This document shows, piece after piece, positions 16,312-34,216 of a stretch of 36,122 nucleotides of DNA (positions are counted from its first letter, which is position 1; the number at the start of each line of letters is the position of its first letter). The DNA lies in the NCBI GenBank assembly GCA_903933915.1, contig CAIZLW010000161.1, positions 1 through 36,122 on the forward strand, given 5' to 3'. The notes beneath the pieces were generated by a model that saw only the letters and a program-made list of their open reading frames with translations, had not been told where the DNA came from and did no database searches. Origin of the DNA: an uncultured beta proteobacterium (GTDB taxonomy: Bacteria > Pseudomonadota > Gammaproteobacteria > Burkholderiales > SG8-41). A program made the translations under genes and the position numbers.

Positions 16312-17214
16312 ATGAAAACCGGCAAAATGAATATTTTAAAATGCATCGCAGGTCTGGCCATGATCGTTTCCATGACCGGTTGCGGCATTTTCAGCAAGGG
16401 CCCGCCTCCGGCGATCGGGCCAACCGGCGCGTCGGCAGGGACCGGCGGTTTTTACAAAGATGATGGCCCCGGCCTTTTCGCCCCCTCCAATCTCGAAGAG
16501 ATCCCCGACGCGGTGCCGAAAATGGAGCCCCTGCTTTCCGGCCCCATGCGACCTTACGTGGTGCTGGGCAAAGGTTATGCCCCGATGACCCGGTTAGAGC
16601 CGTACAAAGATCGGGGCATCGCAACCTGGTATGGCCGGCGCTACCACGGCAAACCCACTTCTTCCGGCGAAGCGTACGACATGTATGCAATGACGGCAGC
16701 GCACACCCTGCTGCCGATCCCGAGTTATGTCCGCGTCACCAATCTTGCCAACAAGAAATCCGTGGTGGTGCGCGTCAATGACCGCGGCCCCTTTATCGGC
16801 AATCGATTGATCGACCTTTCTTACACCGCGGCATACAAGCTGGGACTGGCGACCGCCGGGAGCGGAATGGTCGAGGTTGAAGTCATCATTCCCGGCAGCC
16901 CGGAGCCGGGAAAGACATCAGGGGCTTCGCCAAACATTGCGCCGGCTGCAGTCCAGCCAGTTGCACCCGCCAAACCGATGGCCACCGGATTCTTCGTGCA
17001 ACTGGCCGCCTTCAGCAGCAAAGAAAATGCAGATGCCTATCTGCAGAAAATTCGGGAACAGAAGGAATTGCAGGGCGAACCGCTGCAGATCCGGGAAAAT
17101 GCGGGGCTGTTCAGAATACATGCGGGACCGTATCCCAGCGATGCGGTAGCCCGGCAATCCGCGGAGCGCGTCGCCCGACTGCTCAATATCAGACCGCTGG
17201 TATCAGCGTACTGA
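16312..17214 (+). CDS. rlpA: Septal ring lipoprotein RlpA (lytic transglycosylase type, SPOR domain)
   Basis: RlpA binds denuded glycan and, in species where it was tested, cleaves it. The 300-residue protein has a lipoprotein signal with lipobox cysteine C24 (VSMTGC). A low-complexity Pro/Gly linker follows, then the double-psi beta-barrel domain at about 100-192 (GIATWYGRRYHGKPTSSGE; H131 and D157 in VRVNDRGPF fit the catalytic positions). A C-terminal SPOR domain covers about 225-300. It follows rodA by 33 bases in the elongation cluster. An ATG at codon 6 is an alternative start; neither has a clear ribosome site. Confidence 0.95.
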   Translation: MKTGKMNILKCIAGLAMIVSMTGCGIFSKGPPPAIGPTGASAGTGGFYKDDGPGLFAPSNLEEIPDAVPKMEPLLSGPMRPYVVLGKGYAPMTRLEPYKDRGIATWYGRRYHGKPTSSGEAYDMYAMTAAHTLLPIPSYVRVTNLANKKSVVVRVNDRGPFIGNRLIDLSYTAAYKLGLATAGSGMVEVEVIIPGSPEPGKTSGASPNIAPAAVQPVAPAKPMATGFFVQLAAFSSKENADAYLQKIREQKELQGEPLQIRENAGLFRIHAGPYPSDAVARQSAERVARLLNIRPLVSAY

Positions 17215-17346
17215 ACAGATCTGCACGGACACCCACGGATCGATCCTGTTGCGGTTGATCGCGCCACTGATGGATTTCTGCCGGTGGCAGACGGTTCATC
17301 CTGCTCATCATCGCCAAATCATGCCTTGGCAGTGCCGTGGGTCGGG

Positions 17347-17769
17347 TCAATCGCCGCCCGAGGGATCGGTGACAAAACCGATCCTCTTCAGCCCCGCCTT
17401 GCCCGCCATGGACATGACCTGCGCGACATTTTCATAATGCACCAGCCGGTCGGCGCGGATATGAATCTCGGGCTGCGGATCCAATGTGGCGGCCTGGGAC
17501 ATCCGTTTCTGCAAATCGGCTTTCTCAGCCTGCTCCCCATTCCAGAACAACCGGCCGTCCTGACGGATGCCGATCTGCACATGCTCGGGCTTGGTGATGT
17601 TCGGATTGCTGCTGGCCTTGGGCAGATCGATCTTCACTGAATGCGTCAACAGGGGGGCTGTGATGATAAAAATCACCAGCAGCACCAGCATGACGTCAAT
17701 CAACGGAACCATATTGATTTCAGCCATGGGCTTTTGATCACCACCCGAATCAAATCCGCCAAATGCCAT
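17347..17769 (-). CDS. exbD: Biopolymer transport protein ExbD
   Basis: ExbD forms the proton channel with ExbB that powers TonB. The 140-residue protein has a short cytosolic N-terminus, one membrane helix containing the essential aspartate in MAEINMVPLIDVMLVLLVIF, and a periplasmic domain ending GLKRIGFVTDPSGGD. It lies one base after exbB, and is the last gene of the long minus-strand metal block. The 132 bases between its stop and the rlpA stop hold no clear terminator or gene. Confidence 0.95.
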   Translation of the reverse strand: MAFGGFDSGGDQKPMAEINMVPLIDVMLVLLVIFIITAPLLTHSVKIDLPKASSNPNITKPEHVQIGIRQDGRLFWNGEQAEKADLQKRMSQAATLDPQPEIHIRADRLVHYENVAQVMSMAGKAGLKRIGFVTDPSGGD

Positions 17770-17770
17770 T

Positions 17771-18472
17771 TCAGCTGCTCCGGTTTTTCAGCTGGGCGCC
17801 TGTCGTCAGCAGGGAAAACAGGTCGTGGGCAAAGGCATCGAGCTTCGCCCCGAGCAGTCTGTTCTGCCGGTTGAAGGTGTTGTAGGCGAGCACCGCCGGA
17901 ATCGCGACTGCAAGTCCTATCGCCGTCATGATCAAGGCCTCACCAACCGGACCGGCGACCTTGTCCAGCGTGCCCTGCCCGGTCATGCCGATGCTGATCA
18001 GCGCCTTGTAGACACCCCAGACCGTACCGAATAGCCCGACAAACGGTGCGGTGGCGCCGACCGAAGCCAGCAGTGTCATGCCGCTTTCCGCACGCAAATT
18101 CTGATCGGCAATCGCACTGCGCATTGCACGCATCAGAAAATCCTGCGAGCTCCCGGCCTCATCCAGCCGCTGGGCGCCATGCAGCGCGTGATGTTCACGG
18201 GCTCGCAATGCCCGAACTGTCAGCATGGCAAACGGGTCTCTGTTTTCTTGCGCATCCATGCCCTCGGTAGCCTGTTCAATCGAGGAAGCGGCCCAGAACC
18301 GGTCGAGGAACTGACTGACGCTGCGCCGGACAAAAATACCCTGCAGCGTCTTGCTGATGATCAGATACCAGGTGGTCATCGACATCAGCACCATCGCGAT
18401 CAAAACAATCTTTCCGACAACATCCGTCTGGCTGAGGAATGCACCTACCCCATAAGCCTGCGTGGCATCCAT
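17771..18472 (-). CDS. exbB: TonB-system proton channel protein ExbB
   Basis: ExbB is the pentameric inner-membrane scaffold of the TonB motor (MotA/TolQ/ExbB family). The 233-residue protein has three membrane segments at about 17-38, 127-150 and 170-192. The conserved stretches are SVGATAPFVGLFGTVWGVY and GPVGEALIMTAIGLAVAIPAV, with Thr residues lining the channel. tonB lies three bases upstream and exbD one base downstream, so the three are one translational block. Confidence 0.95.
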   Translation of the reverse strand: MDATQAYGVGAFLSQTDVVGKIVLIAMVLMSMTTWYLIISKTLQGIFVRRSVSQFLDRFWAASSIEQATEGMDAQENRDPFAMLTVRALRAREHHALHGAQRLDEAGSSQDFLMRAMRSAIADQNLRAESGMTLLASVGATAPFVGLFGTVWGVYKALISIGMTGQGTLDKVAGPVGEALIMTAIGLAVAIPAVLAYNTFNRQNRLLGAKLDAFAHDLFSLLTTGAQLKNRSS

Positions 18473-18475
18473 TAA

Positions 18476-19099
18476 TCAATTCTCCAAGGAAAATACAATA
18501 GGAACAATCACAAAGGCGGCAACCGGCTGTGTGCCCTGCCGTGCCGGGACAAAACGCCATCTCCGAACCGCTTCCAGCGCGGCCGTGTCCAGCGAAGGGA
18601 AACCGCTGGATGTCCGCACCTGCACGGTCTCCACCTCGCCCTGCGCGGAGACATAAACCCGCAGCATCACCGTACCCTTTTCACCGCGGCGCCGCGACAT
18701 CAGCGGATACGCCGGCGGCGGATTCTGCAGATAGGCCGCATTGAACGAGGGCGCCACCACGGGGGCAGGCGCCGCTGCCTGCACCTGGCTATCGGGTTTG
18801 GGTGCAGGAACCACGACGGCCTGCGCGGGTGCCGGCGATTCTGCAACCAGCACGGGGGGGGCTTCGCTCGGCGGCGCCTTGGCAACCGGCGGTTGATCCC
18901 GCGCTACCGGCCGCGGCTTGGGCGGCACGACCTCCGGGGGAGGCTGTTTCATTTCCGGCGGTTTGATCAACTCCACCATGATCGGCAGGCTGTCCATCAA
19001 GGGTTTGCGAATGCCCTCGAACTGCAGCAACGCAGCGACCGCCGCAACATGCATTGCAGCCGTCACACTCCAGGCAACCGTGCGTTGCGACAGACTCAT
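18476..19099 (-). CDS. tonB: Energy-transducing protein TonB
   Basis: TonB spans the periplasm and pulls on TonB boxes of outer-membrane receptors. The 207 residues show an N-terminal membrane anchor (about 8-26), a Pro-rich spacer with many PP and KP pairs (about 45-115), and a C-terminal TonB domain from about 120 containing YPLMSRRRGEKGTVMLRVYVS and the SSGFPSLDTAALEAVRRWRFVPAR motif. The gene is directly before exbB-exbD and downstream of two receptor genes, so it is probably their dedicated energiser. No Shine-Dalgarno sequence is obvious before the ATG. Confidence 0.94.
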   Translation of the reverse strand: MSLSQRTVAWSVTAAMHVAAVAALLQFEGIRKPLMDSLPIMVELIKPPEMKQPPPEVVPPKPRPVARDQPPVAKAPPSEAPPVLVAESPAPAQAVVVPAPKPDSQVQAAAPAPVVAPSFNAAYLQNPPPAYPLMSRRRGEKGTVMLRVYVSAQGEVETVQVRTSSGFPSLDTAALEAVRRWRFVPARQGTQPVAAFVIVPIVFSLEN

Positions 19100-19189
19100 C
19101 GACGGTAAAGGCTGCGACAGGAAAAATCGTGCCGCGATGCGAGGATCATGGGGCGGGGGATTTTTACCAGCACGGACAATTCCTCCCGC

Positions 19190-19666
19190 TCACCGGGCCA
19201 GCGCCAGGAACTGCTCGAGTTCCCGTGCTGGTGGTGCTCCGGTAAAAAATTTCACCGGCTTTCCCGGTGCCATGAAAGCGACATAGGGCGTGATTCCACG
19301 CCAGTCCGGATTTACCGTGTATCTGACCGCCTGCTCATGACCGTCGAATACGAACACCCTGTCCACCCGGTTATAGGGCGGCTTCGCAAGAAGTCCCGGC
19401 GGTTCTTCATCCATAACCACACCGATCAGGGAAACTTTGCCGCCCGACCCGGCTTTGTCTTTGGCAATCTTCTGGATGACCGCAGGACAATGGGTACAGT
19501 ACGTCGCCGAAAAAATCACGATGGTCGGTTTTTTCAAGTCCGCACTGAGCGTCTTCCAGGTTTTCCCGTCAAAAGGCTCGATGACTTTCGGCGGCGCGGC
19601 GCCAGCGGCCATCGCTAAACAGCAGCACAGCACCGCCGCACCGGCTCTAGTCAGCAAGGCGTTCAA
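19190..19666 (-). CDS. Exported thioredoxin-fold (redoxin) protein
   Basis: The protein has a signal peptide ending near AMAAGAAPP, then a thioredoxin-like fold with redox motif CTHC in SATYCTHCPAVIQKIA, and a late cis-proline region at RGITPYVAFMAPG. It should act in the periplasm as a thiol oxidoreductase or a thiol-based metal handler; the partner is unknown. I start at the TTG at 19666, which has AAAGGA six bases before it and overlaps the stop of the upstream gene. An ATG at 19687 is an alternative. In copper loci such proteins may keep Cys ligands reduced; that is inference from position. Confidence 0.75.
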   Translation of the reverse strand: MNALLTRAGAAVLCCCLAMAAGAAPPKVIEPFDGKTWKTLSADLKKPTIVIFSATYCTHCPAVIQKIAKDKAGSGGKVSLIGVVMDEEPPGLLAKPPYNRVDRVFVFDGHEQAVRYTVNPDWRGITPYVAFMAPGKPVKFFTGAPPARELEQFLALAR

Positions 19667-20900
19667 TCTGAATCCTTTCACCGGCATTCCAAAGCCCGAA
19701 GATTTCAGAGCCTCTGGACAGCAGAAGCGGGTAATCGTTAACGCCACTGACTGCGCCGATGTTCTTCACCACAAAGGTGGCGCCGGCGTCCCTGGAGACC
19801 CAAGCCCGCCAATGCGTGCGCTCACCATCAAAACTGCGCCACGAGATCACCACATTGTTGCCGGCGCTCCTGACATCGGCATGCTCGGCACGGGCATCCG
19901 GCAATTCAACCGGACTGCCCTTCGGCTGGCCTTTGGCGTCGAGAAGGCTGTAGCGGGCGGCGGCTTTGCCGGCCTTCTCGCCAAACCAGACCGCGTGATA
20001 GCCGCCGTTCTTCGCAGGCGCCAGACCGGGGCCGTGATGCGGGCAGGCGTCCAGCGCCCAGCGGTCATAGGTCGCTCGCATCAGCACCTGCTGTGCGGGC
20101 GCCTGACCGACGCGGGAAAATGCATGGTCGCGTTCATTCGGCTCAAAAACATGCCGCCACATCGCAACAAGCCCTCCGGCGGGATCCGGCGCCAGCGCAA
20201 TGCGGCAGCACTCGCAACTGTGATCGGCCAGCTTGAGATCCGGACCGAAAGTCTTGCCGCCATCCTTTGACTCGTTGCGGTAAATCGCAGCGCCGCGATA
20301 GGCAAGCTCGCGTTTTGCACCCTTGTCCGTTTTCGCGGCCTTGAGCGCCTCACCGTCGCGCTTGTCAATCCACAGGGTATGCAAAGTCCCCTCTGCATCA
20401 AATGCGGCCGAATCGAAACGGTGGGTAATGATCTGGCGATCCTGATGAACGGTATAGGGAAGTGAAAAATTAACCCCGCCGTCCTCGGACCGGAGCATGC
20501 GAATCTCCCCGGTATAAGGCTTGGCCAGCGGCTGGGTATAGGTGATCACCGCCCATGGATGGGGTCCGAAAACGATCTTGGGCCGGCTTTCGCCTTCCGC
20601 GGCAATCGTATCGTTGCCGGTATCAATGATGCGGGGCTGTCCCAAGGCCTCAGCAGCCGGTGCCCCTGCTGTCCGGACATAGAGCTTTCCTTCGCCATTG
20701 ACCCCCACCACCCACAACCGGCCATCGGGAGAGAACGCCGCGTTGATGGCGGGCTGTTGACGGGCGGGTCGCGGTTTCGCATCTTTGGCGGGTTTGCCGT
20801 GCTGATGCTCCGCCATCTGGGCATGGACGGCGGCCGGGATCAACATCAGCACTGCTGAAGCCAGCCCGGCACGCCACCATTGTTTAAAACCATGCCTCAT
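19647..20900 (-). CDS. Exported BNR-repeat (sialidase-fold) beta-propeller protein
   Basis: The 417-residue protein has a signal peptide (about 1-28), a His/Lys-rich stretch (EHQHGKPAKDAKPRP) and several BNR-type Asp boxes, such as SEDGGVNF, SKDGGKTFGPDL and SRDAGATFV, which mark a sialidase-like six-bladed propeller. A cluster HSCECCR in the middle could bind metal. The arginine triad needed for sialic acid hydrolysis is not evident, so an enzymatic sialidase role is doubtful. It lies 23 bases after a TonB receptor gene and overlaps the redoxin gene. This suggests a periplasmic partner in metal uptake. Confidence 0.75.
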   Translation of the reverse strand: MRHGFKQWWRAGLASAVLMLIPAAVHAQMAEHQHGKPAKDAKPRPARQQPAINAAFSPDGRLWVVGVNGEGKLYVRTAGAPAAEALGQPRIIDTGNDTIAAEGESRPKIVFGPHPWAVITYTQPLAKPYTGEIRMLRSEDGGVNFSLPYTVHQDRQIITHRFDSAAFDAEGTLHTLWIDKRDGEALKAAKTDKGAKRELAYRGAAIYRNESKDGGKTFGPDLKLADHSCECCRIALAPDPAGGLVAMWRHVFEPNERDHAFSRVGQAPAQQVLMRATYDRWALDACPHHGPGLAPAKNGGYHAVWFGEKAGKAAARYSLLDAKGQPKGSPVELPDARAEHADVRSAGNNVVISWRSFDGERTHWRAWVSRDAGATFVVKNIGAVSGVNDYPLLLSRGSEIFGLWNAGERIQIERLAD

Positions 20901-20923
20901 CGGATCATCTTCGGGTGAATTTC

Positions 20924-23074
20924 CTAGAACTTGGCTTCCACGCCGGCATAAACCGTGCGGGGCAGCCCCGGTGAATACAACCCACCGTTCGCAGAACTTT
21001 GGGAAGCGCTGTCCGCATAGCGCTTGTCGAGCAGATTCGTCACGCGGGCGAACAGCGAGAGGTCCTTGGAAACGCCCTGGCTTGCACGCAAGTTGAACAG
21101 ATCATGGCCCGGATACTTGCCATAAATGTTTTCCTGATCAAGGAAATACGACCCGATTTTAACCCACTCCAGTTGCGCAGTCGTTTTCGCGGCTGGCTTC
21201 CAGGTCAGCCGGGTGTTGGCCATCAAACGCGGCGAGGCCTCGATTTCCTTGCCGGAATAATTGACTGTCGAAGTCACCCAGTTGGTATAGGTATGTTTTG
21301 CGTATGAACCTGCCAGATCCAGACGGAGGCTCGACAGCAGCGTCTTACCCAGGCCCAGTTCGATCCCTTTGTGTTCGGTTTCGCCATTATTGGTCTGGAC
21401 GGCAAAACCGGTGGAGTCCTTCTGGCTGAGCAGATCATCCTTTTTCTTCAGCAAATACCCGACCACATCATAGTTCCAGCCCGCCGCAAAGCCGCGGAAT
21501 CCCAGTTCATATTGCTCGGCCTTGATCGCATTCAGGTTCAGCGCAGCGTTGGACAGTGCACGGGCCTGCGCCTGCTGGGTCGCCGGTGCGCCGGCATCGG
21601 AACGCCCGCCGCGGAACAGCTGACTCTCCGACGGCGTACGGAATCCCTGATTGTAGGAAGTATAAAGATGGGATTGTTCGCTCAACTGATAAGTTGCCCC
21701 CAGTTTCGGACTCAGCCGGGAAAAGTCGACGCTGGCATCCGCTGGCGTGTAGTACTGGCGACCGGATGCCGTGACAAAACCCGGGGTCATCTGGTTTTTC
21801 ATGTCGTACAGCGCGTAGTCGTAGCGCAATCCCATCGTCACCCGCAGCTTTTCGGAGGGCGACATTTCGAGGTGGGCATAGGGCGCCGCACTGGTATAAG
21901 TCGACTCGTAGTCATAGATCCGGCTGCCCAGGGTGTAGCCGGTGTACTGGGTATATAAACTGTTGGGACCGATCAAGGTGGAGGTCAGATTGATCTTGGT
22001 TTCCTTGCGCTTGCTCGGGCTGTAATCCAGATCCACACCGACAATCAGCCGCGTACGCAGGGGATCGGAAAAATCCTGGCGAAACTTGGTCATCACGCCA
22101 TACGACTGGACCTGGGTCTCCTCGATGCGGGCATCCCCGGTGAAATTGAAGGTGCCGTTCAGATCCATCGAGTTGTTGCGGATATACGGCGTCACCGTCA
22201 CTTCCTTGCCCTTACCCAAGTCGCGGGCGACGGAGGTCGACAACCGCAGCGCTTCTACGTTACGAAATGCCGGCGAGCGCAGATTGACGGTCGGATTGTT
22301 GACATAAAGGTCATACGGCAGGGCGCTGTTGGCGCCCGTCTGCATGTCGATCTTCGAGTATCCCAGGATGGTTTTAACCGCCGTCTGACCGTCCGGTTCG
22401 CGATCCCAGCGCAGATTCAGGCTTTGCCGGTCATACCCGGTCTGGATGCGCCAGCCATCGCTATGCATCAGATTGATGTCGGCACGCAAGGCATCCTTGT
22501 CGCTGCGGCCGGTATCAATGCCGCCGAGGAATCTCTGGAAACCGTGTTGACCAAACTCCAGCGAGGCATCTGCCCCTTGTTTATCGGAAGGGGTGCGGGT
22601 CAGCACGTTGACAATGCCGCCGATCGCATCGGAACCGTACAGCGCCGTGCCGATGCCGCGGATCACCTCCACGCCGCCGGCGCTGGACAGATTCACTTCA
22701 TAAAGCCCGTTGTGATTGAAATTGCCGGTCGCCCGCGTCGGGATCCCGTCCTCCAGGAACAGATAGACCGGAGCGGTGGTGAAACCCTGGCGGATCGCCG
22801 TGTTGTGTCCCTCGCCATTGGTCACGCCAATGGCAACCCCCGGGACCTGGCTCAGAATCTCTGCGGGATGCGCGGGACGCGTCAATTGAATCGATTCGCG
22901 CGGGATAACGCCGACGGAAACCGGGGTTTCCGAAATTTTTTCGGCTTCCCGGGTACCCGTCACCGTCACCGTCGGCAAATCGGGAAAGTTGGCGTTCTGT
23001 GCATAGACTTGTGCGCTGAACAGGCTGGTGATGGCAATCGCCATCGCTTTTTTTACTGGTTTTTTTGTGCTCAT
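20924..23074 (-). CDS. TonB-dependent outer-membrane receptor (first of the copper-type block)
   Basis: The 716-residue protein has a signal peptide ending QVYAQ and a TonB box near LPTVTVTG. The plug domain contains ILSQVPGVAIG and the GGVEVIRGIGTALYGSDAIGGIVNV motif. A long beta-barrel follows, ending in an aromatic residue (VYAGVEAKF). I start at the ATG at 23074 because GGAG stands six bases before it; an ATG four codons upstream has none. Substrate cannot be read from the sequence. Its operon includes a PCu(A)C chaperone, another receptor and tonB-exbBD, so a copper complex or chalkophore-like ligand is plausible. Confidence 0.88.
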   Translation of the reverse strand: MSTKKPVKKAMAIAITSLFSAQVYAQNANFPDLPTVTVTGTREAEKISETPVSVGVIPRESIQLTRPAHPAEILSQVPGVAIGVTNGEGHNTAIRQGFTTAPVYLFLEDGIPTRATGNFNHNGLYEVNLSSAGGVEVIRGIGTALYGSDAIGGIVNVLTRTPSDKQGADASLEFGQHGFQRFLGGIDTGRSDKDALRADINLMHSDGWRIQTGYDRQSLNLRWDREPDGQTAVKTILGYSKIDMQTGANSALPYDLYVNNPTVNLRSPAFRNVEALRLSTSVARDLGKGKEVTVTPYIRNNSMDLNGTFNFTGDARIEETQVQSYGVMTKFRQDFSDPLRTRLIVGVDLDYSPSKRKETKINLTSTLIGPNSLYTQYTGYTLGSRIYDYESTYTSAAPYAHLEMSPSEKLRVTMGLRYDYALYDMKNQMTPGFVTASGRQYYTPADASVDFSRLSPKLGATYQLSEQSHLYTSYNQGFRTPSESQLFRGGRSDAGAPATQQAQARALSNAALNLNAIKAEQYELGFRGFAAGWNYDVVGYLLKKKDDLLSQKDSTGFAVQTNNGETEHKGIELGLGKTLLSSLRLDLAGSYAKHTYTNWVTSTVNYSGKEIEASPRLMANTRLTWKPAAKTTAQLEWVKIGSYFLDQENIYGKYPGHDLFNLRASQGVSKDLSLFARVTNLLDKRYADSASQSSANGGLYSPGLPRTVYAGVEAKF

Positions 23075-23161
23075 GTTTTTCTCCATTCATTAATGACCAG
23101 ATTCAAATTCAAAACGGATTTCCATTACGGCGGAGGCGAAGCCCCGGCCTCGTGCAATCAC

Positions 23162-23620
23162 TCAAGCGGCCTGCAAGACGGCGTAGTGGCCGGCATCCGG
23201 CGGCGCAAGCGCCACGAAACAAGCCGGTTGCCGGACCTGCAATACGCAGCCACTCTCATCCGCAATTTCACGTGTCCCTCTGGTGCGCCCCGGCTTTGGG
23301 CCGGTACGGCGCTCGGCGCATCCATGCAAGCCCGCCTGCAACAAAGCCTTCAGGCGCAGCGCCCTGGCGGCGCCGGCAGCGTCAAGCAGCCGGTTCCAGA
23401 CGCCGTCATGCTGCCAGCGCAGGTAGCGGACATAGGCTGCGTGCCAGCCGCCAAACTCAACCGGCATCTCCCGCCACCGCGCGCCGGTAATGCCAACCCA
23501 CAACACCGCATCCACAAACAGCCGGTTGTCTTTCGCGGTAACTCCGCGGTCTTTTAATTTCCCCGGAAGTAACGGTTCGAGAAACAGCCACTCATCATCG
23601 TTTAATTGTCTGATCGTCAT
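23162..23620 (-). CDS. Orphan IS5-type transposase N-terminal (DUF4096) protein
   Basis: Residues 1-80 match the DUF4096 N-terminal domain of IS5-family transposases: DDEWLFLEPLLPG, VDAVLWVGITGARWREMP and WHAAYVRYLRWQHDGVWNRLLDA. The remaining 70 residues do not resemble a DDE catalytic domain, and no orfB, terminal repeats or target duplication are seen. The start is the ATG with GAGG eight bases upstream, 10 bases after the copper-uptake-associated gene. It may be an IS remnant caught in the operon or a domesticated DNA-binding protein. The lack of frameshifts over 152 codons slightly favours an intact gene. Confidence 0.65.
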   Translation of the reverse strand: MTIRQLNDDEWLFLEPLLPGKLKDRGVTAKDNRLFVDAVLWVGITGARWREMPVEFGGWHAAYVRYLRWQHDGVWNRLLDAAGAARALRLKALLQAGLHGCAERRTGPKPGRTRGTREIADESGCVLQVRQPACFVALAPPDAGHYAVLQAA

Positions 23621-23630
23621 TTCATGATCC

Positions 23631-24227
23631 TCACTTATGAACATGAGAATGCTGTCCATGGTCTGCGTCCATAGGGATCGTCTTGCCGAACGAATCAAAG
23701 CGCCGGCGCTGATCTTCGGTAAAACGCGCTTCTGCCGTTTTCAGGCGTGTTGCGATATCCTGCGCAGCGTTTTCGGAGATCCCCGATTCACGCAATACGC
23801 CGGCATCCCGCATACCGTCACCTCCGCAGGCAATGACGCGCCATGTAGTGCCGCGACGCATCAACAGCGCCCGCCCTCCTTTATCACCCTGGAGCCAGCT
23901 GGCAACGCTGTAATTGCCCGAAACAATCACCGGCGCAACCTGTAATGGTTGTCCAGGTTTGTCCCATGTCGCCTTCATCACCCCCACCACCGCTTGCTCA
24001 TCGGTCTGCGACTGGGTTGCAGCAATGCAGGAGAAAGTCATAACCAGAGAACCGCCAATAACGATCAAGAACCCGAAAAGCTTGCTTAACAGGGTCTTTG
24101 CCGCGTTGGAACGGGAGTCACCGATCTTGAAACCTTCAAAAAATCCCGTCCCAACATCCCTTGTTGGAATGCGTCGTAACAGCAGGCACATTGATGCCTG
24201 CCAGCACCGGGGAATTGTCATATTCAT
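23631..24227 (-). CDS. Copper-uptake-system-associated protein
   Basis: The C-terminal 130 residues resemble the small exported family annotated as copper uptake system-associated protein: DEQAVVGVMKATWDKPG, VSGNYSVASWLQGDKGGRALL, WRVIACGGDGMRD and a His-rich end (DADHGQHSHVHK). A hydrophobic segment at about 47-68 (LFGFLIVIGGSLVMTFSC) can be a signal or anchor. The N-terminal 45 residues are unusual and coincide with a nested palindrome. GAGGGG lies eight bases before the ATG, and the preceding receptor gene ends 16 bases upstream, so this start fits the operon. The molecular role in the family is not established. Confidence 0.72.
   Translation of the reverse strand: MNMTIPRCWQASMCLLLRRIPTRDVGTGFFEGFKIGDSRSNAAKTLLSKLFGFLIVIGGSLVMTFSCIAATQSQTDEQAVVGVMKATWDKPGQPLQVAPVIVSGNYSVASWLQGDKGGRALLMRRGTTWRVIACGGDGMRDAGVLRESGISENAAQDIATRLKTAEARFTEDQRRRFDSFGKTIPMDADHGQHSHVHK
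24105..24167. repeat. Nested palindromic element inside coding sequence
   Basis: GTTGGAACGGGA (24105-24116) and TCCCGTCCCAAC (24144-24155) are inverted repeats with 11 of 12 bases matching. Between them TTGAA and TTCAA form a short inner stem. A second palindrome, CCAACA (24151-24156) with TGTTGG (24162-24167), overlaps the outer arm. The layout recalls REP/MITE-like repeats. It falls in the unusual N-terminal part of the copper-uptake-associated gene and keeps the frame open. Other copies were not seen in this window. Confidence 0.5.
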
Positions 24228-24243
24228 CGCATCGGCCCCTCAA

Positions 24244-26238
24244 TCAGAAGCCAGCAATCAAGCCAACGCGGAAGTTACGGCCCGGCATCGGGTAACCGGC
24301 GTTGTATTGATAGTCGGCATCAAATAGGTTGTTGACCGCCACGTAGATTTCCCCGCCTTTGCCGAGGCTTGCCGTCGGGTAGGCAATGCGGGCGTTGGCT
24401 ACGGTGAACCCGGCTACCGGATTGGGGGCAAATGTGCCGCGATCCTGCGTCAGTGAATACATGCCGGACTGATGCTGGGCATCAATGGCCAGCTTGAATC
24501 CACCGACTTTCCCGTTAACACCGCCCGAAATGGCGGTGTCCGGCAAATAAGGCATGTTGCTGATCGTCGACTCCAGCATGGTCAGCCCGCCGAAAACCGT
24601 CCATTGGCGATTAACCTCGTGCCGTACGGAAACCTCACCGCCGTTGATGCGATACGCCGGAAAACTGTTGCTCCAGGTTCCTGATGCCGGGGGCGCGAAC
24701 GCACCGGCGTTAAACCCACTCCAGACGTAGCGGTCGCTGACTTCATCGTTAAAGATGCTGATATCAATTTGCGTCGCGGCACTCAGATTCAGCTTGACGC
24801 CGATCTCGCTGTGTTTGTCCTCGGTCGGTGACAGCCGGTCCCAGCCGTTATTGGCAGCAAATGCCATCGGCAACGCACGCGTCAACGTGTAGGTTTCAGC
24901 ACCGGGATACAGCAACCCTCTTGAATAATTGGCGTATACGGTCATTGCATCCGAGATCAGGGAAACGCCGGCATTGGGTCCCGCCTTGGATTCGTAGTAA
25001 TTGCTGTCGTAGAACCTCGCGCCGACAGAGGGCAACAGCATCCAGCCGCTGCTGAGATTGATCTTCTGGCTGACGCCGGCATAGGCGGAGAGGAGCTTGA
25101 AGTCGGGGATTTCAGCAGAACCCTGGACGCCGAATCCGAACGGTGTGCCCACCGGTGAACCGACATGCGTGCCGGACACCGTTCCGGAGACCGTCTCCTG
25201 ATCAATGCCCGCAACAATCTGCCCGCCCTGCCAGGGCGAAAACTCTTCTTTCCAGCGAAACCCGGACATCTTGAATTTGCTGTTGAAAGTGCCCCAGTTC
25301 GGGTCATTGGTCAGGTCGTTGTGACCCTTGTTGTCATATATCTTGAACTCCCCTTTCCAGTCACCGTGTCTGTGTGCGACGGAAGCCGTAAACATGGTTG
25401 TGGCGGAGTCATTTCGCGCCACTCCGTTGGAAAAGGTGTAAGGTCCGACGCCCACATTCGATACCGGAAACCGGTTATCGCCGGGATCACCCACCTCGTT
25501 GTTAACCGTCAGGAAACTCGCCCCGACAGACCAGGCGCTGTTGATTTTGAGACCGACCTTGCCCATGGCATTTTTGAGTCTGCCGTCGGAGTTAGGACGA
25601 TCACCGTCGGACTCGATCTGTCCGACTGCGAGCATGAAATCAACGTCATCCTTGCGACCCAAAAGATTGGCCTGCAGCACCTTCGTGGAAAACGATCCGG
25701 CGGACAGATTGACTTCCCCCTCGACACCTTCCCGTGTTGCTGTTTTGGTCTGGAGATTGATTGATCCGAAATTGTTGCCGCTCGACTGTGGCTGGGGTCC
25801 CTTGTAAATATCAATCGACTTGATGCCATTCAAGGGCAGCAGGTCCATCAGCGGATGATTCCAGACACCCATGTAGACGGGGATTCCGTCCAGATATGTC
25901 TTGATTTCCGAGCCCGGCCGGCTGGCACCCATGCCGCGGATGTAGACGTTACCGCCCTGGTCTCCGCTATAGGAGCCGACTTCGTTATAACGTGAAATCT
26001 GAACACCCGGCGCCATGCGCAAACCTGCAGCCAGGTCCAGCGCAGACAGGTCTTTCAACTGGGATTCCGTTACACGCGTCGAGAAGCTGGAGAACAGATC
26101 AACGTTGTTGGATTCAATGATCGGGCTACTGGTCACGACGACTGAATCCAGCTTTTTGTCACCGGCTTGCTGTGCATGCGCTTCAGCAGCAAGTGCTGCA
26201 AGCGCCAGGGTCACAGACAAAGAAAGATAATTTTTCAT
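24244..26238 (-). CDS. TonB-dependent outer-membrane receptor (second of the copper-type block)
   Basis: The 664-residue protein has a signal peptide ending AEAHAQQ, a TonB box at LDSVVVTSSP, and a plug with GLRMAPGVQISRYNE, GNVYIRGMGASRPGSEIKTYLDGIPVYMG and IDIYKGPQPQSSGNNFGSINL. The barrel ends in FRVGLIAGF. The plug loop MGVWNHPLMDLL brings two Met and one His near the ligand side, which would suit copper, but this is inference. The gene sits between a small membrane protein and the copper-uptake-associated gene, downstream of the PCu(A)C chaperone. Confidence 0.88.
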   Translation of the reverse strand: MKNYLSLSVTLALAALAAEAHAQQAGDKKLDSVVVTSSPIIESNNVDLFSSFSTRVTESQLKDLSALDLAAGLRMAPGVQISRYNEVGSYSGDQGGNVYIRGMGASRPGSEIKTYLDGIPVYMGVWNHPLMDLLPLNGIKSIDIYKGPQPQSSGNNFGSINLQTKTATREGVEGEVNLSAGSFSTKVLQANLLGRKDDVDFMLAVGQIESDGDRPNSDGRLKNAMGKVGLKINSAWSVGASFLTVNNEVGDPGDNRFPVSNVGVGPYTFSNGVARNDSATTMFTASVAHRHGDWKGEFKIYDNKGHNDLTNDPNWGTFNSKFKMSGFRWKEEFSPWQGGQIVAGIDQETVSGTVSGTHVGSPVGTPFGFGVQGSAEIPDFKLLSAYAGVSQKINLSSGWMLLPSVGARFYDSNYYESKAGPNAGVSLISDAMTVYANYSRGLLYPGAETYTLTRALPMAFAANNGWDRLSPTEDKHSEIGVKLNLSAATQIDISIFNDEVSDRYVWSGFNAGAFAPPASGTWSNSFPAYRINGGEVSVRHEVNRQWTVFGGLTMLESTISNMPYLPDTAISGGVNGKVGGFKLAIDAQHQSGMYSLTQDRGTFAPNPVAGFTVANARIAYPTASLGKGGEIYVAVNNLFDADYQYNAGYPMPGRNFRVGLIAGF

Positions 26239-26275
26239 TTTATTTACCTGAAATTTTTAGGGGAATGGCTTTGAT

Positions 26276-26515
26276 TTAATTTCTCAAAGCAACGTCGGTG
26301 CGACCCGCCCAGTCGGTTACCTGATGTAAAACACAATTGCAGCCGTGAATTCGCAGTACTCCGCCGCTTAGGCTCGAGCTGTCATGCGAGCCCATCGCCG
26401 CCAAGGACAGCCACAGACAGAGGGCTAGCATTGCCGCGACGTTGAGGTTTGCGATGATTCGCATCAGCAACCGGATTCGGCTGATTGCTGCTTCGTACCC
26501 GCTGTCAGTGTCCAT
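26276..26515 (-). CDS. Small membrane protein with a Cys-x-Cys tail
   Basis: A 79-residue protein of no family I recognise. It has a charged N-terminus (MDTDSGYEAAISRIRLLMR), one hydrophobic segment at about 22-42, and a tail with H57-G-C59-N-C61 followed by VLHQ. AAAGG stands five bases before the ATG, and the start overlaps the end of the PCu(A)C gene by 11 bases, which argues for coupled translation. An ATG nine codons upstream is possible. The His/Cys tail could hold a metal ion on either face of the inner membrane. The product is hypothetical. Confidence 0.6.
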   Translation of the reverse strand: MDTDSGYEAAISRIRLLMRIIANLNVAAMLALCLWLSLAAMGSHDSSSLSGGVLRIHGCNCVLHQVTDWAGRTDVALRN

Positions 26516-26996
26516 TGCGGCCTTTCTGTTCAGGCTGGGCATTGCCTTTCAGGTCGCGGACTTCAACGTTCAACGCGATGGTTTCGCGCTTCTTGTCGGC
26601 CAGTTCAAAGGTCAGTTTGAAGGGGATGCTCCTGCCCGCCTGCAGCGGCATGTTCAAGCCCATCAACATCACGTGATAACCACCTGGTGCCAGTTTCACG
26701 GTTTTACCGGCCGGCAGATCCAGGCCATCGACCGGGAACATTTTCATGACCCCGCCCTCGACCTTCATGTTGTGCACTTCAACCGTCTTCGCTGCAGGAC
26801 TCGATGCGCTGATCAGCCGGGCGTTGTTTTTGCTGGTCAGTTCCATGAACGCGCCGGTGGCGCTCTGGCCCTGTACCGTGCCGCGAACCCAGGCCTCCTT
26901 GACTTCGACAGACTGCGCGTAAACGCTGGTGGTCAGGCACACAGACAGGACAACGGACGTGATGGATGCAGCAATGGCCTTGCAGGTCGTCTTCAT
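26505..26996 (-). CDS. Periplasmic copper chaperone PCu(A)C
   Basis: PCu(A)C proteins bind Cu(I) in the periplasm and deliver it to the CuA or CuB centres of cytochrome oxidase. The 163-residue protein has a signal peptide ending VYAQ and the full family motif H(M)x10Mx21HxM: H75-N-M77, M86, H108 and M110. The domain start VKEAWVRGTVQGQSATGAFM is typical. The ATG at 26996 has AAGGA upstream; earlier in-frame codons are not conserved-looking. It follows a DUF2946 gene by 114 bases. This gene is the best evidence that the block handles copper. Confidence 0.94.
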   Translation of the reverse strand: MKTTCKAIAASITSVVLSVCLTTSVYAQSVEVKEAWVRGTVQGQSATGAFMELTSKNNARLISASSPAAKTVEVHNMKVEGGVMKMFPVDGLDLPAGKTVKLAPGGYHVMLMGLNMPLQAGRSIPFKLTFELADKKRETIALNVEVRDLKGNAQPEQKGRNGH

Positions 26997-27110
26997 GACG
27001 ATTCCTTTTTGCAAATGAACGGTGGATTGAATTCGTCGCCATGCACGCGCAGTGCACGCAGCGAGGGCGCGGCAAATGCCGCGCGGCTCAGGCAACCGAA
27101 GTGCGGAAGG

Positions 27111-27488
27111 TCAGGTGCGCGGCGGGGCGCGCGGATTCAGCGGCTGCAGGGCCGCCATGCCGGACACCACAGGGGGGGCGTCGGCAGAAACAACAATGAT
27201 GACCGGGCTTCTCGGCACCAGGGAGGCACCGCTAACTTCCGGGAACAAAAAGGGCGTGGTCGCAGAACCGACGCAGGTCAGGCAGTGCTGGGTTGAAACC
27301 TTGCCGCCCGGAGCAGGCGTCTCGCCGTTTGCCGCCGCCTGGATTGATTCAACGGGGCTGCAAACCTTGGCAAAAGCAACAGGATCAATGGCATAGCGCA
27401 CCACTGCCATCGCGGGGACCGCGAAAGCAAAGAGCAGCGCCACCAGTGCGAAACTGGCTATGAACCGTTGTTTTACGAAAATTTTCAC
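27111..27488 (-). CDS. DUF2946-type exported protein
   Basis: The 125-residue protein has a signal peptide ending VPAMA, a pair of cysteines in QHCLTCVG, and the Pro-rich C-terminus PRAPPRT typical of DUF2946 proteins, which often lie next to copper-handling and TonB receptor genes. Function is unknown; the Cys pair may bind metal. The start is GTG at 27488. It lies only about nine bases after a strong -10 box and has no Shine-Dalgarno sequence, so the mRNA may be nearly leaderless. It is the first gene of the copper-type block. Confidence 0.8.
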   Translation of the reverse strand: MKIFVKQRFIASFALVALLFAFAVPAMAVVRYAIDPVAFAKVCSPVESIQAAANGETPAPGGKVSTQHCLTCVGSATTPFLFPEVSGASLVPRSPVIIVVSADAPPVVSGMAALQPLNPRAPPRT

Positions 27489-27496
27489 TTTTTTAG

Positions 27497-27524
27497 ATTA
27501 TCAAATTTTCACAAATACTGTCAA
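27497..27524 (-). promoter_or_regulatory. Strong sigma70-like promoter of the copper-type block
   Basis: On the minus strand TTGACA (27524-27519) is followed after 16 bases by GATAAT (27502-27497). The surrounding bases are AT-rich. Transcription would start near 27490, two or three bases before the GTG of the DUF2946 gene. No clear palindrome for CueR, CopY, Fur or Zur was recognised across it. Confidence 0.7.
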
Positions 27525-27563
27525 GCCGACGGTTAAACCCCTAAGAACGAGGGATTTTATTCC

Positions 27564-27600
27564 AAAAAAGCTGCCGCCCGGATTGACGCCGGTGCGGCAG
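27564..27600 (-). terminator. Intrinsic terminator after the ZnuD-like receptor gene
   Basis: On the minus strand CTGCCGC (27600-27594) pairs with GCGGCAG (27577-27571), followed by C and six T residues (27569-27564). It begins eight bases after the receptor stop codon. It separates the zinc-type cluster from the copper-type block. Confidence 0.85.
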
Positions 27601-27608
27601 CGAAGGCG

Positions 27609-29705
27609 TCAGAACTGCCCGCGTATCCCCAGTTGCGCACTGCGCCGGCCCAGCGGCGCGATATCTTTCAGAAAGGACACGTGATTGCGCGCCTCTTCGT
27701 TGAGCAGGTTGACGCCGCGCAGGAAGGCCTCCAGCCGGACACCCGACGCCGGCAATCGGTAACTGACCGACGCATTCAACATGGTGTAACCGTCGGTCGG
27801 CAATTCACCGGCAGCTACGCGATCCTGGCCATCGACAACAGTGGCATCGACGCGGGCACCGAGACGATCCTGGCGATAATCCACGCCGATGCCGTAACGC
27901 AAGGGTGCAATGCGCGGTAGCGGCAGACCGGTCGATTGATCCTCAGCGCGCACATAGCTTGCGTTGACCAACAGGTCGACCACGCCGCCGCGCTCCATCA
28001 CGCGAAAGCGGCCTTCGCCTTCAATGCCGCGAAACCGCGCCGGCACTGCGCGATAGGCAAACTCCGGCAGGATTTCTTCACCGGTATTCAGCGAAGTGCC
28101 GTCACCGGCATCCGGCGGATTCAGCTCGCCATCGGCGCCGCGGGTATTGCCGGAATTGACCAGCGTGATGTAATTGTCGAAGCGGTTCTGAAACACACCG
28201 ACACTACCCGAGTGTTTTCCGGATTTCATGCGTAACGTGAGATCCAGCGCTTTCGACTTTTCCTTGCCGAATGCCGAATTACCGATTTCATAAACACCGG
28301 TCGCGGCATGCGGACCATTGGCATACAGCTCGTAATAGGTCGGTGCGCGTTCGGTGTAGGCGCCATTAACGGCCAGCGCCATACCCGGGCTCAGGCTCCA
28401 GACCGCTCCGAGCGCACCGCTGTTGCCGCTGAATGTCCGGGTCTGCGCAGGATCGAAACGCGGCCCGGCGCCGCCAAATGGCACCGTACCGCCACCTTCA
28501 CTGCTGACTTCCGTACGTTCATGCCGGCCTCCGAAGGTTAGTTTTAGCGGCCCCAGGGGCAGTTCCTCGTAAAAGAAACCGGCCTTGGCATCCGTGCTGG
28601 TTGAAGGCACAAAGGCTTCGGCACCGAGTGCCGAAAAATCAAAATTGGTGAGCTGCAAACCGAACGCACCTTTGAGCGGTCCAAGATTGCCGTGGGTCGC
28701 TTCCAGGTGCATGTCGTGCCCCTTGTTGCGGAATACTGTGGCCGGAACGCCGGCATCGAGTTCTGTATGTTCGTAGTCGGTTTTACCGGCCTTGAACTTC
28801 AGCGCACGGATCGCAGTGCCCAGCTCGCGCACTTCGCCGGCGACATCCCAGCGACTGCTTTGCATGTCGATGCTGACCGTCGGTTCTGCCACCGTGCCGT
28901 AAGTCGAATTGAAATCGGAACGGGAAATACCGATGTAGCCGTTGGCCCAGGTCTGCGAAACGCCAAAGGAACCGCCGTCTGATTTTGCCGCGCTGTTGGG
29001 CAGAGTGCCTTGGGCTTCGACGGGCTGCGGGTCAGAAGCGCGCAAACGGGCGGATCGGGCAAAACCTTTTATTTTCAGGTCGTCAGTGTCGCGGGAATAA
29101 ACGTCAGCATGCAGTGCAAGACTGCCGTTGCCCGCCTCAAAAACGACAGCACCCGCCTTTTCCCGCTCGGCGCCGCCGAAGCGGCCTTCAACGCGTCCGT
29201 TGACACCCTGTATTGCCGCTTGCGGAATGCGGTTATCGATGACATTGACCACACCGCCAACGGCGCTGCCGCCGTAGAACAATGCCGCCGGTCCGCGCAC
29301 GACTTCCGCGCGTTCGATCACCAGCGGATCGATCGATACCGCGTGGTCAAAACTCAGCGAAGAGGCGTCCAGCATGCCGATGCCGTTCTGCAGCAGGCGG
29401 ATGCGGTCACCATCAAGGCCGCGGATCACCGGACGGCTGGCGTTGGGGCCGAAACCGGTCGCGGCCACCCCGGGCAGGCCGTCCAGCGTGTCGCCGAGCG
29501 TGGAACGGCGCAGGCGGAACAATTCTTCGCCCTGCACCACCGATGCCGGTGATGCCATTTCGAACAAATCGCTGCCCAGCGGATTGCCGGTGACGATGAC
29601 TTCCGGCAGTGTCGCCGGTGACGTTTTATTGCTGACCTGCGCGTGGACGGTCGTGGCATGCGCCGCGACCGCCATCAGCGCAAGCATAAAGGGCTTGCTG
29701 CTCAT
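27609..29705 (-). CDS. znuD: ZnuD-like TonB-dependent zinc receptor
   Basis: The 698-residue protein has a signal peptide ending TTVHAQ and a TonB box at LPEVIVTGNP. The plug carries TLGDTLDGLPGVAATGFGPNASRPVIRG, LDGDRIRLLQNG and IERAEVVRGPAALFYGGSAVGGVVNV, the signature of the ZnuD group of zinc and haem receptors. The barrel ends QLGIRGQF. The ATG at 29705 has GGAGA six bases upstream; 11 earlier in-frame codons are dropped. The gene lies at the end of a run of zinc-starvation-type genes, which supports zinc as ligand. The symbol rests on similarity recalled, not on a search. Confidence 0.82.
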   Translation of the reverse strand: MSSKPFMLALMAVAAHATTVHAQVSNKTSPATLPEVIVTGNPLGSDLFEMASPASVVQGEELFRLRRSTLGDTLDGLPGVAATGFGPNASRPVIRGLDGDRIRLLQNGIGMLDASSLSFDHAVSIDPLVIERAEVVRGPAALFYGGSAVGGVVNVIDNRIPQAAIQGVNGRVEGRFGGAEREKAGAVVFEAGNGSLALHADVYSRDTDDLKIKGFARSARLRASDPQPVEAQGTLPNSAAKSDGGSFGVSQTWANGYIGISRSDFNSTYGTVAEPTVSIDMQSSRWDVAGEVRELGTAIRALKFKAGKTDYEHTELDAGVPATVFRNKGHDMHLEATHGNLGPLKGAFGLQLTNFDFSALGAEAFVPSTSTDAKAGFFYEELPLGPLKLTFGGRHERTEVSSEGGGTVPFGGAGPRFDPAQTRTFSGNSGALGAVWSLSPGMALAVNGAYTERAPTYYELYANGPHAATGVYEIGNSAFGKEKSKALDLTLRMKSGKHSGSVGVFQNRFDNYITLVNSGNTRGADGELNPPDAGDGTSLNTGEEILPEFAYRAVPARFRGIEGEGRFRVMERGGVVDLLVNASYVRAEDQSTGLPLPRIAPLRYGIGVDYRQDRLGARVDATVVDGQDRVAAGELPTDGYTMLNASVSYRLPASGVRLEAFLRGVNLLNEEARNHVSFLKDIAPLGRRSAQLGIRGQF

Positions 29706-29805
29706 GACGTTCTCCGTATGACGGAACGGCGCGCGCAACCTCAGGCCGGCGCATCACGCTCCGCTAATTAATCAGGATGGGAACACCGGCCGGGCCGGTG
29801 GTGTG

Positions 29806-30207
29806 TCAGGAGCGGACCGGAGGGCCGCGGGAATCGTACGGAACATCAGCCGTCGTGCCGCGCGACTGCGGCACGATAACGACATGGGCAACAGCTTCGG
29901 TCGCCGAGAAATGAAACGCGTGATCGGCGTGCATGCCGCCGAGCACCTGGCTGTAAACCAGATCAAAAGCGCACTGCTCGGAAACAATGCGTTTGCCCGG
30001 CGCCTGGTGCTGATCAAGCGCATCGCTGTGCGCTTGATACAGCGGCGACTGTGCCTGCAGCGCCGCGACGGATTCATGGGCATGCCCGGCGGCATGACCC
30101 AGCGCATGGGTCAGTGCGCCCTGCTGCGCCACCAGCAACAGCAGCGCCAGCAGCCATCGCAAGGTGATGGCGCGCAACACTCTGGCGAGCAGCGGCAAAC
30201 GAGGCAT
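29806..30207 (-). CDS. His-rich exported protein with RGPP C-terminus
   Basis: The 133-residue protein has an Arg-rich start and hydrophobic signal or anchor (about 10-30), then many histidines in clusters (THALGHAAGHAHES, YQAHSDALDQHQ, MHADHAFHF), one Cys in SEQCAFDL and a C-terminal DSRGPPVRS resembling the end of DUF2946 proteins. It follows the DUF3299 gene by 13 bases and precedes the ZnuD-like receptor gene. A periplasmic zinc-binding or zinc-buffering role is inferred from composition and context. The 100-base gap to the receptor holds a short palindrome at 29784-29800 but no T-run. Confidence 0.72.
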   Translation of the reverse strand: MPRLPLLARVLRAITLRWLLALLLLVAQQGALTHALGHAAGHAHESVAALQAQSPLYQAHSDALDQHQAPGKRIVSEQCAFDLVYSQVLGGMHADHAFHFSATEAVAHVVIVPQSRGTTADVPYDSRGPPVRS

Positions 30208-30220
30208 GGCTATTGCGGAA

Positions 30221-30748
30221 TCAGCGCGGCGTGGTCACGGCAACCGCGTCGGTCAGCCGGTAATAAAGCCCCATCGAGTCATCGCGCAGCACGGTGAAGC
30301 GGCCGGAGACAACGATGGGCTCAAAGCCGTATTTCACCGGCGTCTTGGCCTGAACTTCAACCATTTGCTCCGGGCCGCCGGGCATGCAGAACGAGCAGGT
30401 GGGTGGCAGCGCGGCGAGGATGAAACGCTTCTGCCGCTCCCCCATATCCAGCGGCATCATAAAGCCCTGAATTCGCACTTCCTGCTTGTCGAGCGTCGCC
30501 ACACTTTTGCCAAATTCAGGCATGAAGCGATCTTTCTGCTTCACGGTTTTGACATCAGCCAGCGTCTTCCAGGACGTCACCCCCTTCAGTTCGGGTAACG
30601 GTTTGAAGGCATACGGTGAAGGCGGCAAATTGGCATCCGCATCCAAGGGTTTTTTCATCAAATCATTCTTGCCTGCGGAACCCTGGAATCCCTGCGCGCT
30701 GGCCGAGACCGCCAATGCAAGCATGATTGCGCCAAGTTGAATTTTCAT
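30221..30748 (-). CDS. DUF3299-domain exported protein
   Basis: The 175-residue protein has a signal peptide ending VSASAQ. It then has the DUF3299 features SWKTLADV, FGKSVATLDKQEVRIQGFMMPLD and ILAALPPTCSFCMPGGPEQMVEV, where a Cys-x-x-Cys pair lies near the conserved PGGP. Biochemical function is unknown. In Pseudomonas the Zur-regulated PA4063-PA4066 cluster, as I recall it, joins a protein of this kind to an ABC ATPase and permease; the same set is present here. No Shine-Dalgarno sequence precedes the ATG, and a possible -10 box ends six bases before it. Confidence 0.83.
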   Translation of the reverse strand: MKIQLGAIMLALAVSASAQGFQGSAGKNDLMKKPLDADANLPPSPYAFKPLPELKGVTSWKTLADVKTVKQKDRFMPEFGKSVATLDKQEVRIQGFMMPLDMGERQKRFILAALPPTCSFCMPGGPEQMVEVQAKTPVKYGFEPIVVSGRFTVLRDDSMGLYYRLTDAVAVTTPR

Positions 30749-30754
30749 AAGTTT

Positions 30755-30784: not shown

Positions 30785-30808
30785 GGATTCCGCAAGGTCT
30801 GCAGCCGA

Positions 30809-31075: not shown

Positions 31076-31129
31076 GGGTTGATCTCCAGGGTTAAGTTAA
31101 TGAATCAATCGGCCGCCGGTAAAGCTGCT

Positions 31130-34202: not shown

Positions 34203-34216
34203 GGCAGTAACCCCTT

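Follow-up and report, generated by a model that had tools for sequence, protein, structure and literature searches.

The copper operon described here, a run of twelve minus-strand open reading frames (ORFs) in an uncultured beta proteobacterium, counts among its closest described counterparts the cruR-bfrG(crtA)-bp2921 operon of Bordetella pertussis. There, translation of the leader CruR is reported to govern the operon and to control the receptor through a RAPP motif: RAPP is needed for downstream expression, CxxC is needed for the copper response, and Rho terminates transcription in the gap behind the leader (PMC9426467). Arrest of CruR at RAPP was shown in vitro in a report that describes R(A/G)PP arrest peptides as small exported ORFs with a C-terminal RAPP or RGPP in front of receptor and copper genes (PMC12992588). 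The receptor CrtA imports chelated copper for heme-copper oxidases, and some crtA operons include ExbBD/TonB or PCuAC genes (PMC12914433). In cutFOG of Rhodobacter capsulatus, a DUF2946-like nascent exported copper sensor also controls downstream genes, but CutF, unlike a CruR-type leader, is described as promoting CutO when copper is present, carries a CxxxC motif and acts with a stem-loop (PMC9973294). The window, by which we mean the whole 36,122-nt contig CAIZLW010000161.1 (GCA_903933915.1; SG8-41 lineage), carries what we read as a variant of CruR-controlled copper uptake operons; arrest peptides in front of TonB receptors are already published.

The window operon shares with cruR-bfrG(crtA)-bp2921 a DUF2946-type leader with CxxC and a C-terminal RAPP, a long gap behind it and a TonB receptor, but it has no PepSY_TM protein (PMC9426467, PMC12914433). 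Compared with the B. pertussis operon as described, it also has a beta-propeller, a redoxin, an NF033672 protein and two receptors, the second of which is not closest to CrtA, and its promoter almost abuts the leader ORF. With the Bradyrhizobium pcu operon, which has PcuB and is reported to be induced by copper starvation, it shares PCu(A)C and a TonB receptor (PMC12617631). Leaders ending in RAPP or RGPP before import genes, of which the window has two, resemble the published arrest peptides; the main text of that report does not mention zinc, and a ZnuD-linked form with CxxD in the sensor register is not known to be among the peptides it describes (PMC12992588).

The first gene and its promoter

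The head of the operon comprises the following features:

27497..27524, minus strand: sigma-70-type promoter, TTGACA-16-GATAAT, from a promoter scan, 8 nt before the start codon of the upstream ORF (uORF)
27111..27488, minus strand: putative CruR-type copper-sensing uORF, DUF2946-like, with HCLTC (CxxC at residues 69-72) and a C-terminal RAPP (120-123 of 125)
26997..27110, minus strand: 114-nt intergenic region between the uORF and the PCuAC gene, the proposed zone of Rho termination (C/G 1.32, including the 3' part of the uORF)

We read the first gene as a CruR-type uORF because it carries HCxxC, has RAPP 47 residues later and is followed by a 114-nt gap before PCuAC. It is probably a regulatory uORF rather than a structural part, a role that the original prediction had not seen. 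The ORF starts with GTG, is the first after the promoter and encodes 125 residues with a hydrophobic N-terminal stretch and the C-terminal end NPRAPPRT. Its spacing of 47 residues between CxxC and RAPP compares with the roughly 45 expected for CruR, and with 45 in the B. pertussis protein itself. The C/G ratio in the 3' part of the leader plus the gap was 1.32, versus 0.91-1.01 in five other genes.

To place this leader among relatives, we used 80 comparison loci around homologs of the operon's propeller gene. A propeller-alignment scan of named genomes gave at least 592 pattern stretches, of which 571 were confirmed and the best 80 kept, selected by an SC[ED]CC or CPH[HT]G motif; nearly all of these best 80 of 571 are titled Betaproteobacteria or groups thereof, and eight loci are shorter than 6 kb. 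Neighboring genes were counted by BLAST against our own references, which probably misses divergent receptors and redoxins. Denominators of 61 or 78 below are the loci with enough room around the propeller gene. Surveyed sequences here and below share kinship, and counts are given without p-values.

R(A/G)PP within the last 16 residues was found in 98 of 6149 complete ORFs of 60-220 residues in the 80 loci, and 92 of these 98 also had CxxC. The next recognized gene was PCuAC for 17 leaders and a receptor for 47 (28 + 15 + 4), while 27 had none within reach. A homolog of the window's receptor 2 was the next recognized gene for 28 of the 98, all 28 with CxxC. Where PCuAC or a copper-locus receptor came next, CxxC was present in 60/60 leaders and its spacing to R(A/G)PP was 41-47 in every one. 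Among the other leaders of these loci, the four before TonB had CxxC, as did the one before NF033672 and the one before CruR; the one before ExbB had Cxx(x)D, the four before ZnuD-type receptors had CxxC (3) or Cxx(x)D (1), and those without a recognized next gene had CxxC (22), another motif (3) or none (2). Four copper leaders from the window's genus had a pS of 0.65-0.72, exceeding their pN of 0.26-0.47, with synonymous sites near saturation. This pattern indicates selection on the leader peptide and does not speak to its role.

Seven loci (L071, L079, L082, L093, L094, L103 and L109) have two leaders in one copper operon, RAPP before PCuAC and RGPP before the receptor, and each operon segment may be gated separately there. 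A copper island in a one-contig 1.9-Mb genome (L136:8050-15129) combines a single RAPP leader with two similar ORFs that end in SAAPP and a few further residues; these ends are possibly decayed or altered arrest motifs.

All twelve minus-strand genes that had been claimed at 17347-27488 were present in the ORF list. With the likeliest starts, the gaps between them are 114, -10, 37, 16, 10, 75, 23, -101, 90, 3 and 1 nt. The claim of one strong promoter also held at the level of sequence: the site before the twelve ORFs agrees with 11 of 12 consensus positions and was the only minus-strand promoter reported in 17200-30300, so the single-promoter anatomy of the operon appears sound. A Markov control predicted 0.02 sites with 11/12 matches per 10.25 kb of one strand (100 draws), while the scan overall gave 2 sites versus a shuffle mean of 4.2, that is, no excess over shuffles. 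The near-abutting promoter suggests that the regulatory uORF would be translated from an almost leaderless mRNA. Two same-genus genomes, inspected by eye, have a TTTGAC...TAACAT promoter immediately 5' of the leader, and a third has a weaker one. In the window and in same-genus loci L140, L141 and L012, a -10-like element, also seen by eye, lies 7-8 nt upstream of the CruR start codon. An Rfam scan of 17000-36122 gave no match at gathering score, and hence no known riboswitch at that threshold.

Composition of the operon in relatives

Behind the leader, the operon contains eleven further ORFs:

26505..26996, minus strand: PCu(A)C copper chaperone (Pfam 125 bits, above the curated cut-off; exact H-x10-M-x21-H-x-M motif)
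26276..26514, minus strand: 79-residue membrane-type ORF with CxC, no family over cut-off
24244..26238, minus strand: TonB-dependent receptor 1, apparently a rare inserted cassette (Pfam Plug domain only)
23631..24227, minus strand: copper uptake system-associated protein, partner of receptor 1 (NF033672, 119.6 versus a cut-off of 50)
23162..23620, minus strand: truncated IS5-family transposase, formerly the "DUF4096 protein" (NF033580 positions 4-143 of 258)
20924..23086, minus strand: TonB-dependent receptor 2, of the core cassette (Pfam Plug and barrel)
19647..20900, minus strand: Cys-rich beta-propeller with a predicted sialidase/lectin fold (SC[ED]CC and CPH[HT]G; structure model)
19190..19747, minus strand: thioredoxin-like redoxin (YCTHC; Thioredoxin 22.1 versus a cut-off of 23.5)
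18476..19099, minus strand: TonB (Pfam, above the curated cut-off)
17771..18472, minus strand: ExbB (Pfam, above the curated cut-off)
17347..17769, minus strand: ExbD (Pfam, above the curated cut-off), one of three ExbD/TolR-type genes in the assembly

Across the 80 loci the recurring core has the order leader, (PCuAC), TonB receptor, Cys-rich propeller, redoxin and, in some, TonB-ExbB-ExbD. An R(A/G)PP leader lay upstream of the propeller gene, at a distance of up to 4.5 kb, in 52/61 loci, a recognized receptor stood directly upstream of it in 42/61 and a redoxin directly downstream in 56/78. PCuAC was found within 6 kb of the propeller in 31/61 loci and a complete TonB-ExbB-ExbD motor within 7 kb in 8/61. 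Leader, receptor, redoxin, PCuAC and complete motor were all present in two of the 61 (L064 and L111). Different receptor types stand before the propeller in relatives. The recurring core, together with the CruR-type leader, the PCuAC motif and the NF033672 match, supports the original prediction of copper acquisition with a dedicated motor. The Bradyrhizobium pcu operon is not known to have a CruR-type leader, motor, propeller or second receptor.

Receptor 1 is far more restricted. It was not the best label for any ORF of the 80 loci, where 11 ORFs matched it weakly (E 1e-9 or worse), and its homologs (E ≤ 1e-60) occurred, counting the window, in five of the 300 genomes surveyed in the order. 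The NF033672 gene adjoins receptor 1 in three of the four other genomes (L135, L136 and L138; not L137), and an NF033672 protein was found in one of the 80 named loci (L056). No receptor 1 was found in the four same-genus neighborhoods read (L012, L139-L141). The propeller was present in 2 of 21 genomes of the genus. One same-genus contig (G017) has the order zinc leader, ZnuD, TonB, CruR, PCuAC, receptor 2, propeller, redoxin; two others (G013 and G007) have zinc leader, ZnuD, TonB, CruR, PCuAC and nothing further, and a fourth (G005) has that same shorter order, but its CruR-matching ORF lacks the RAPP end.

As judged from these comparisons, the copper operon appears to be composite, joining the recurring core to a rare receptor-1 cassette with an insertion sequence (IS) remnant at one edge; the order of insertion events is one that we infer. 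Its exact gene set is partly accidental. The view of a self-contained twelve-gene system is not supported: one gene is most likely a regulatory uORF, another is what remains of a transposase, and receptor 1 is missing from the four same-genus neighborhoods and from the best labels in the 80 loci. A search of neighborhoods, as had been proposed, recovered the core and did not find the full set elsewhere, and neighbors varied in relatives, though as modules rather than randomly.

The assigned gene identities stood for PCuAC, TonB, ExbB and ExbD, and fell for the DUF4096 protein. As a truncated IS5 transposase (81.7 bits versus the NF033580 cut-off of 110, about 54% of the transposase covered, a single copy found in the assembly), it is ruled out as an operon component. 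BLAST at E ≤ 1e-4 gave the CxC ORF no relative among the 80 named loci, and the ORF may be spurious. The best solved relatives of receptor 2 are PqqU/YncD. Identity with CrtA was rejected for it on this comparison, given that PqqU outscores the CrtA structure 9RVQ and that no PepSY family occurs among the twelve products (Pfam). OprC/NosA (TIGR01778, cut-off 472.45) was likewise rejected, with receptor 2 scoring 33.2 and receptor 1 having no listed match. With regard to methanobactin-linked uptake, the NF033672 protein is present, and no methanobactin biosynthesis family was found among the matches of the operon's products (Pfam for 12 products, NCBIfam for 10).

The propeller scored 18.3 to Pfam BNR versus a cut-off of 27, and its structure model was confident (mean pLDDT 87.2, pTM 0.85). 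Among the 50 best solved folds listed for the model, most were lectin and sialidase propellers, with lectin propellers on top and a query TM of 0.41-0.58; in a comparison with sialidases (GH33), the profile matched only parts of them. SC[ED]CC and CPH[HT]G were invariant in nine of nine aligned homologs, eight rows of this alignment coming from a whole-protein search with ten matches including the window, and the weak match G038 (L011) being left out. In the named loci, which were preselected by one of these motifs, SC[ED]CC occurred in 78/80 and CPH[HT]G in 80/80 propeller ORFs. A literature search linking sialidases or propellers with copper found nothing relevant.

Proposed mechanism and its alternatives

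We are fairly confident that CruR-type attenuation of a composite copper-acquisition operon is the best explanation of this locus, in which the operon probably switches itself off through its leader peptide when copper is plentiful. The gene order, promoter match, terminator-like hairpin, motifs, register and core recurrence were observed directly, and from them we infer stalling, Rho, copper as the ligand and every step after import. Transcription would begin at the 27524-27497 promoter. When copper is scarce, a ribosome on the uORF would stall at RAPP and shield the transcript from Rho, so that polymerase could continue through PCuAC to ExbD. Copper bound by HCxxC of the emerging chain would relieve the stall, and Rho would then terminate in the 114-nt gap. 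The two receptors would bring in chelated copper, powered by the local TonB-ExbB-ExbD; the Cys-rich propeller and redoxin would receive, reduce or hold periplasmic copper, and PCu(A)C would pass it to heme-copper oxidases. That the propeller accepts copper in the periplasm and is maintained in reduced form by the redoxin is a guess, made because of the invariant Cys/His and the gene order.

Several observations weigh against this explanation. The leader's DUF2946 Pfam score of 23.1 falls 0.6 bits under the cut-off of 23.7. The 80 nt with the greatest excess of C over G in the region lie in the propeller gene, with the leader end second, which makes the C-rich stretch a weak argument for Rho. 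The promoter almost touches the GTG of the uORF, whereas the transcription start in B. pertussis is reported 45 bp upstream (PMC9426467). Receptor 2 scores 72.8 bits to PqqU versus 55.5 to the copper receptor CrtA (9RVQ), and receptor 1 had no match at E ≤ 0.001 among solved structures. Leader, receptor and redoxin occur together in only 28/61 loci by our criteria. The full gene set was found in none of the other loci read, and its parts therefore need not act as one machine.

Some of these points would fit an arrangement in which the first gene encodes an exported protein of the ordinary kind and regulation acts at the operon's promoter only, as would the strong near-consensus promoter and the sub-threshold DUF2946 match. 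However, RAPP lies two residues from the C terminus, and its CxxC register and its position are conserved in relatives; the excess of pS over pN in its homologs in the genus shows a selected peptide without telling its role. We consider this arrangement very unlikely. The receptor affinities raise a different question, namely whether the core of receptor 2, propeller and redoxin imports non-copper cargo, such as a quinone cofactor or another metallophore, with PCuAC as a passenger. Proximity of receptor 2 to PqqU/YncD, the varied receptor types before the propeller and the propeller's resemblance to glycan-binding folds all agree with such cargo. On the other side stand the receptor-2 homologs that are the next recognized gene after CxxC-bearing R(A/G)PP leaders, the frequency of PCuAC within 6 kb of the propeller and the invariant Cys/His motifs of the propeller, and we regard non-copper cargo as unlikely. 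It is also unlikely, in our estimation, that the locus is a decaying patchwork whose IS remnant and insertion leave the downstream genes poorly expressed. The truncated IS5 transposase does sit between cassettes, receptor 1 is rare in the order and most genomes of the genus lack the propeller, but the remaining ORFs are open, the gaps are short and the scan found no other minus-strand promoter.

The adjacent zinc operon and its candidate leader

Upstream of the copper operon, outside the span of the original prediction, lies a second candidate leader:

29806..30207, minus strand: putative zinc leader, His-rich, with CAFD (79-82) and a C-terminal RGPP (127-130 of 133)
27609..29705, minus strand: ZnuD-type receptor for zinc, following the zinc leader (ORF open from 29738; 202.4 bits to the solved ZnuD 4rdr)
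27564..27601, minus strand: hairpin plus U-tract resembling an intrinsic terminator, located between the zinc operon and the copper operon (-24.5 kcal/mol, z -3.8)

The receptor's closest solved structure is ZnuD 4rdr, the next best scoring 53.1 bits, and 27609-36122 reads as a zinc-starvation operon. The hairpin is predicted to end it, parting it from the copper operon. Pfam content of the zinc operon includes DUF1826, DUF3299 and an FtsX permease, and reading of the ORFs without a family scan added CobW-type and ABC ATPase genes. A DksA paralog at 35144-35584 has only two cysteines (109 and 130), which presumably fits a zinc-sparing DksA, the zinc-finger form having four. No match to a Zur-box consensus was found in the window at up to three mismatches, and the promoter of this operon may lie beyond the contig end. 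A small four-Cys protein with a CGMKH end is encoded at 30809-31075, and on a Polaromonas plasmid a look-alike (L245:2110-2373) has a zinc ABC binding protein on one side and a ZnuD-type receptor on the other.

The zinc leader ORF lies between DUF3299 and the receptor and encodes 133 residues with ten His and a single Cys, that of CAFD, with 44 residues between CAFD and RGPP; it had no Pfam match better than E 0.21. Relatives were found in 35 of 74 genomes of the family (E ≤ 0.01, the weakest doubtful). An alignment of 28 rows from 30 loci had 24 ending in R(A/G)PP, the window's row included; L030, L032, L040 and L047, the last of them unrelated, end otherwise. Among 14 close zinc leaders the peptide motifs were retained even as the codons used for Cys, Asp and both Pro varied, those for the preceding Ser-Arg being constant; dN/dS against three close relatives was 0.23, 0.20 and 0.45. 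One same-genus genome (G005) has two zinc-type leaders, one before LolD-FtsX-DUF3299 genes and one before ZnuD (L139:8758-9135, 12035-12424).

Used as a query across the class, the zinc leader matched in 4/369 genomes, namely itself and three weak, partial matches, and we therefore anchored the survey on the receptor. For the 300 genomes of the order 95 ZnuD-type places were listed, of which the upstream DNA of 70 was read (30 loci and 40 stretches), omitting fragments and the lowest-scoring remainder; for the 369 genomes of the class 42 were listed, of which 28 were read. An R(A/G)PP-ending ORF stops near the ZnuD-type receptor in 41/70 places of the order, versus 0/772 other ORF segments of the same stretches, and in 16/28 class places outside the order, versus 0/110 segments. 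In all of the 41 order leaders but one (L156), that is in 40, a Cys precedes the Arg by 45-49 residues. By motif, the 41 comprise 21 with Cxx(x)D, 13 with CxxC, 6 with another motif and one lacking a Cys in register. By our reading, 12 of the 16 class-wide leaders have CxxC. Together with the three of four ZnuD leaders in the copper loci, this rules out CxxD as a general mark of zinc leaders; given how common CxxC is class-wide, CxxD is restricted to this lineage. Three near-miss leaders ending in QAPP before ZnuD-type receptors (L187, L193 and L151) were left out of the counts. Two plasmid-borne ZnuD-type loci, in Caballeronia NK8 and Polaromonas E19S (2 of 22 records found), had no R(A/G)PP leader (0/2).

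A finely balanced proposal is that zinc uptake, too, is under metal-sensing arrest peptides, with the copper motif CxxC changed to CxxD at the same tunnel register in this lineage, which would have made a switch for zinc out of one for copper, such that two adjacent operons would be set by stalling. Relief of the leader by zinc is plausible given that Zn2+-driven folding of a small zinc finger in the ribosome tunnel is reported to prevent SecM arrest; that effect was strongest when the finger lay 24-26 residues from the point of arrest, and the zinc leader's motif, 44 residues from RGPP, is farther away (PMC4571824). A literature search, with subscription papers and preprints mostly outside its reach, found no arrest peptide of this kind tied to zinc among the papers listed.

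Copper import in Gram-negative bacteria is poorly mapped, and the leader, receptor, Cys-rich propeller and redoxin, sometimes with their own motor, form a recurring and testable set. The zinc arrest peptide is the higher-value lead of the two: if true, zinc uptake, otherwise accounted for by the repressor Zur, would gain a post-transcriptional layer. Side by side, the leaders for copper and zinc would then represent one stalling device, re-tuned between metals by exchanging a few ligands whose distance from the ribosome active site is fixed.

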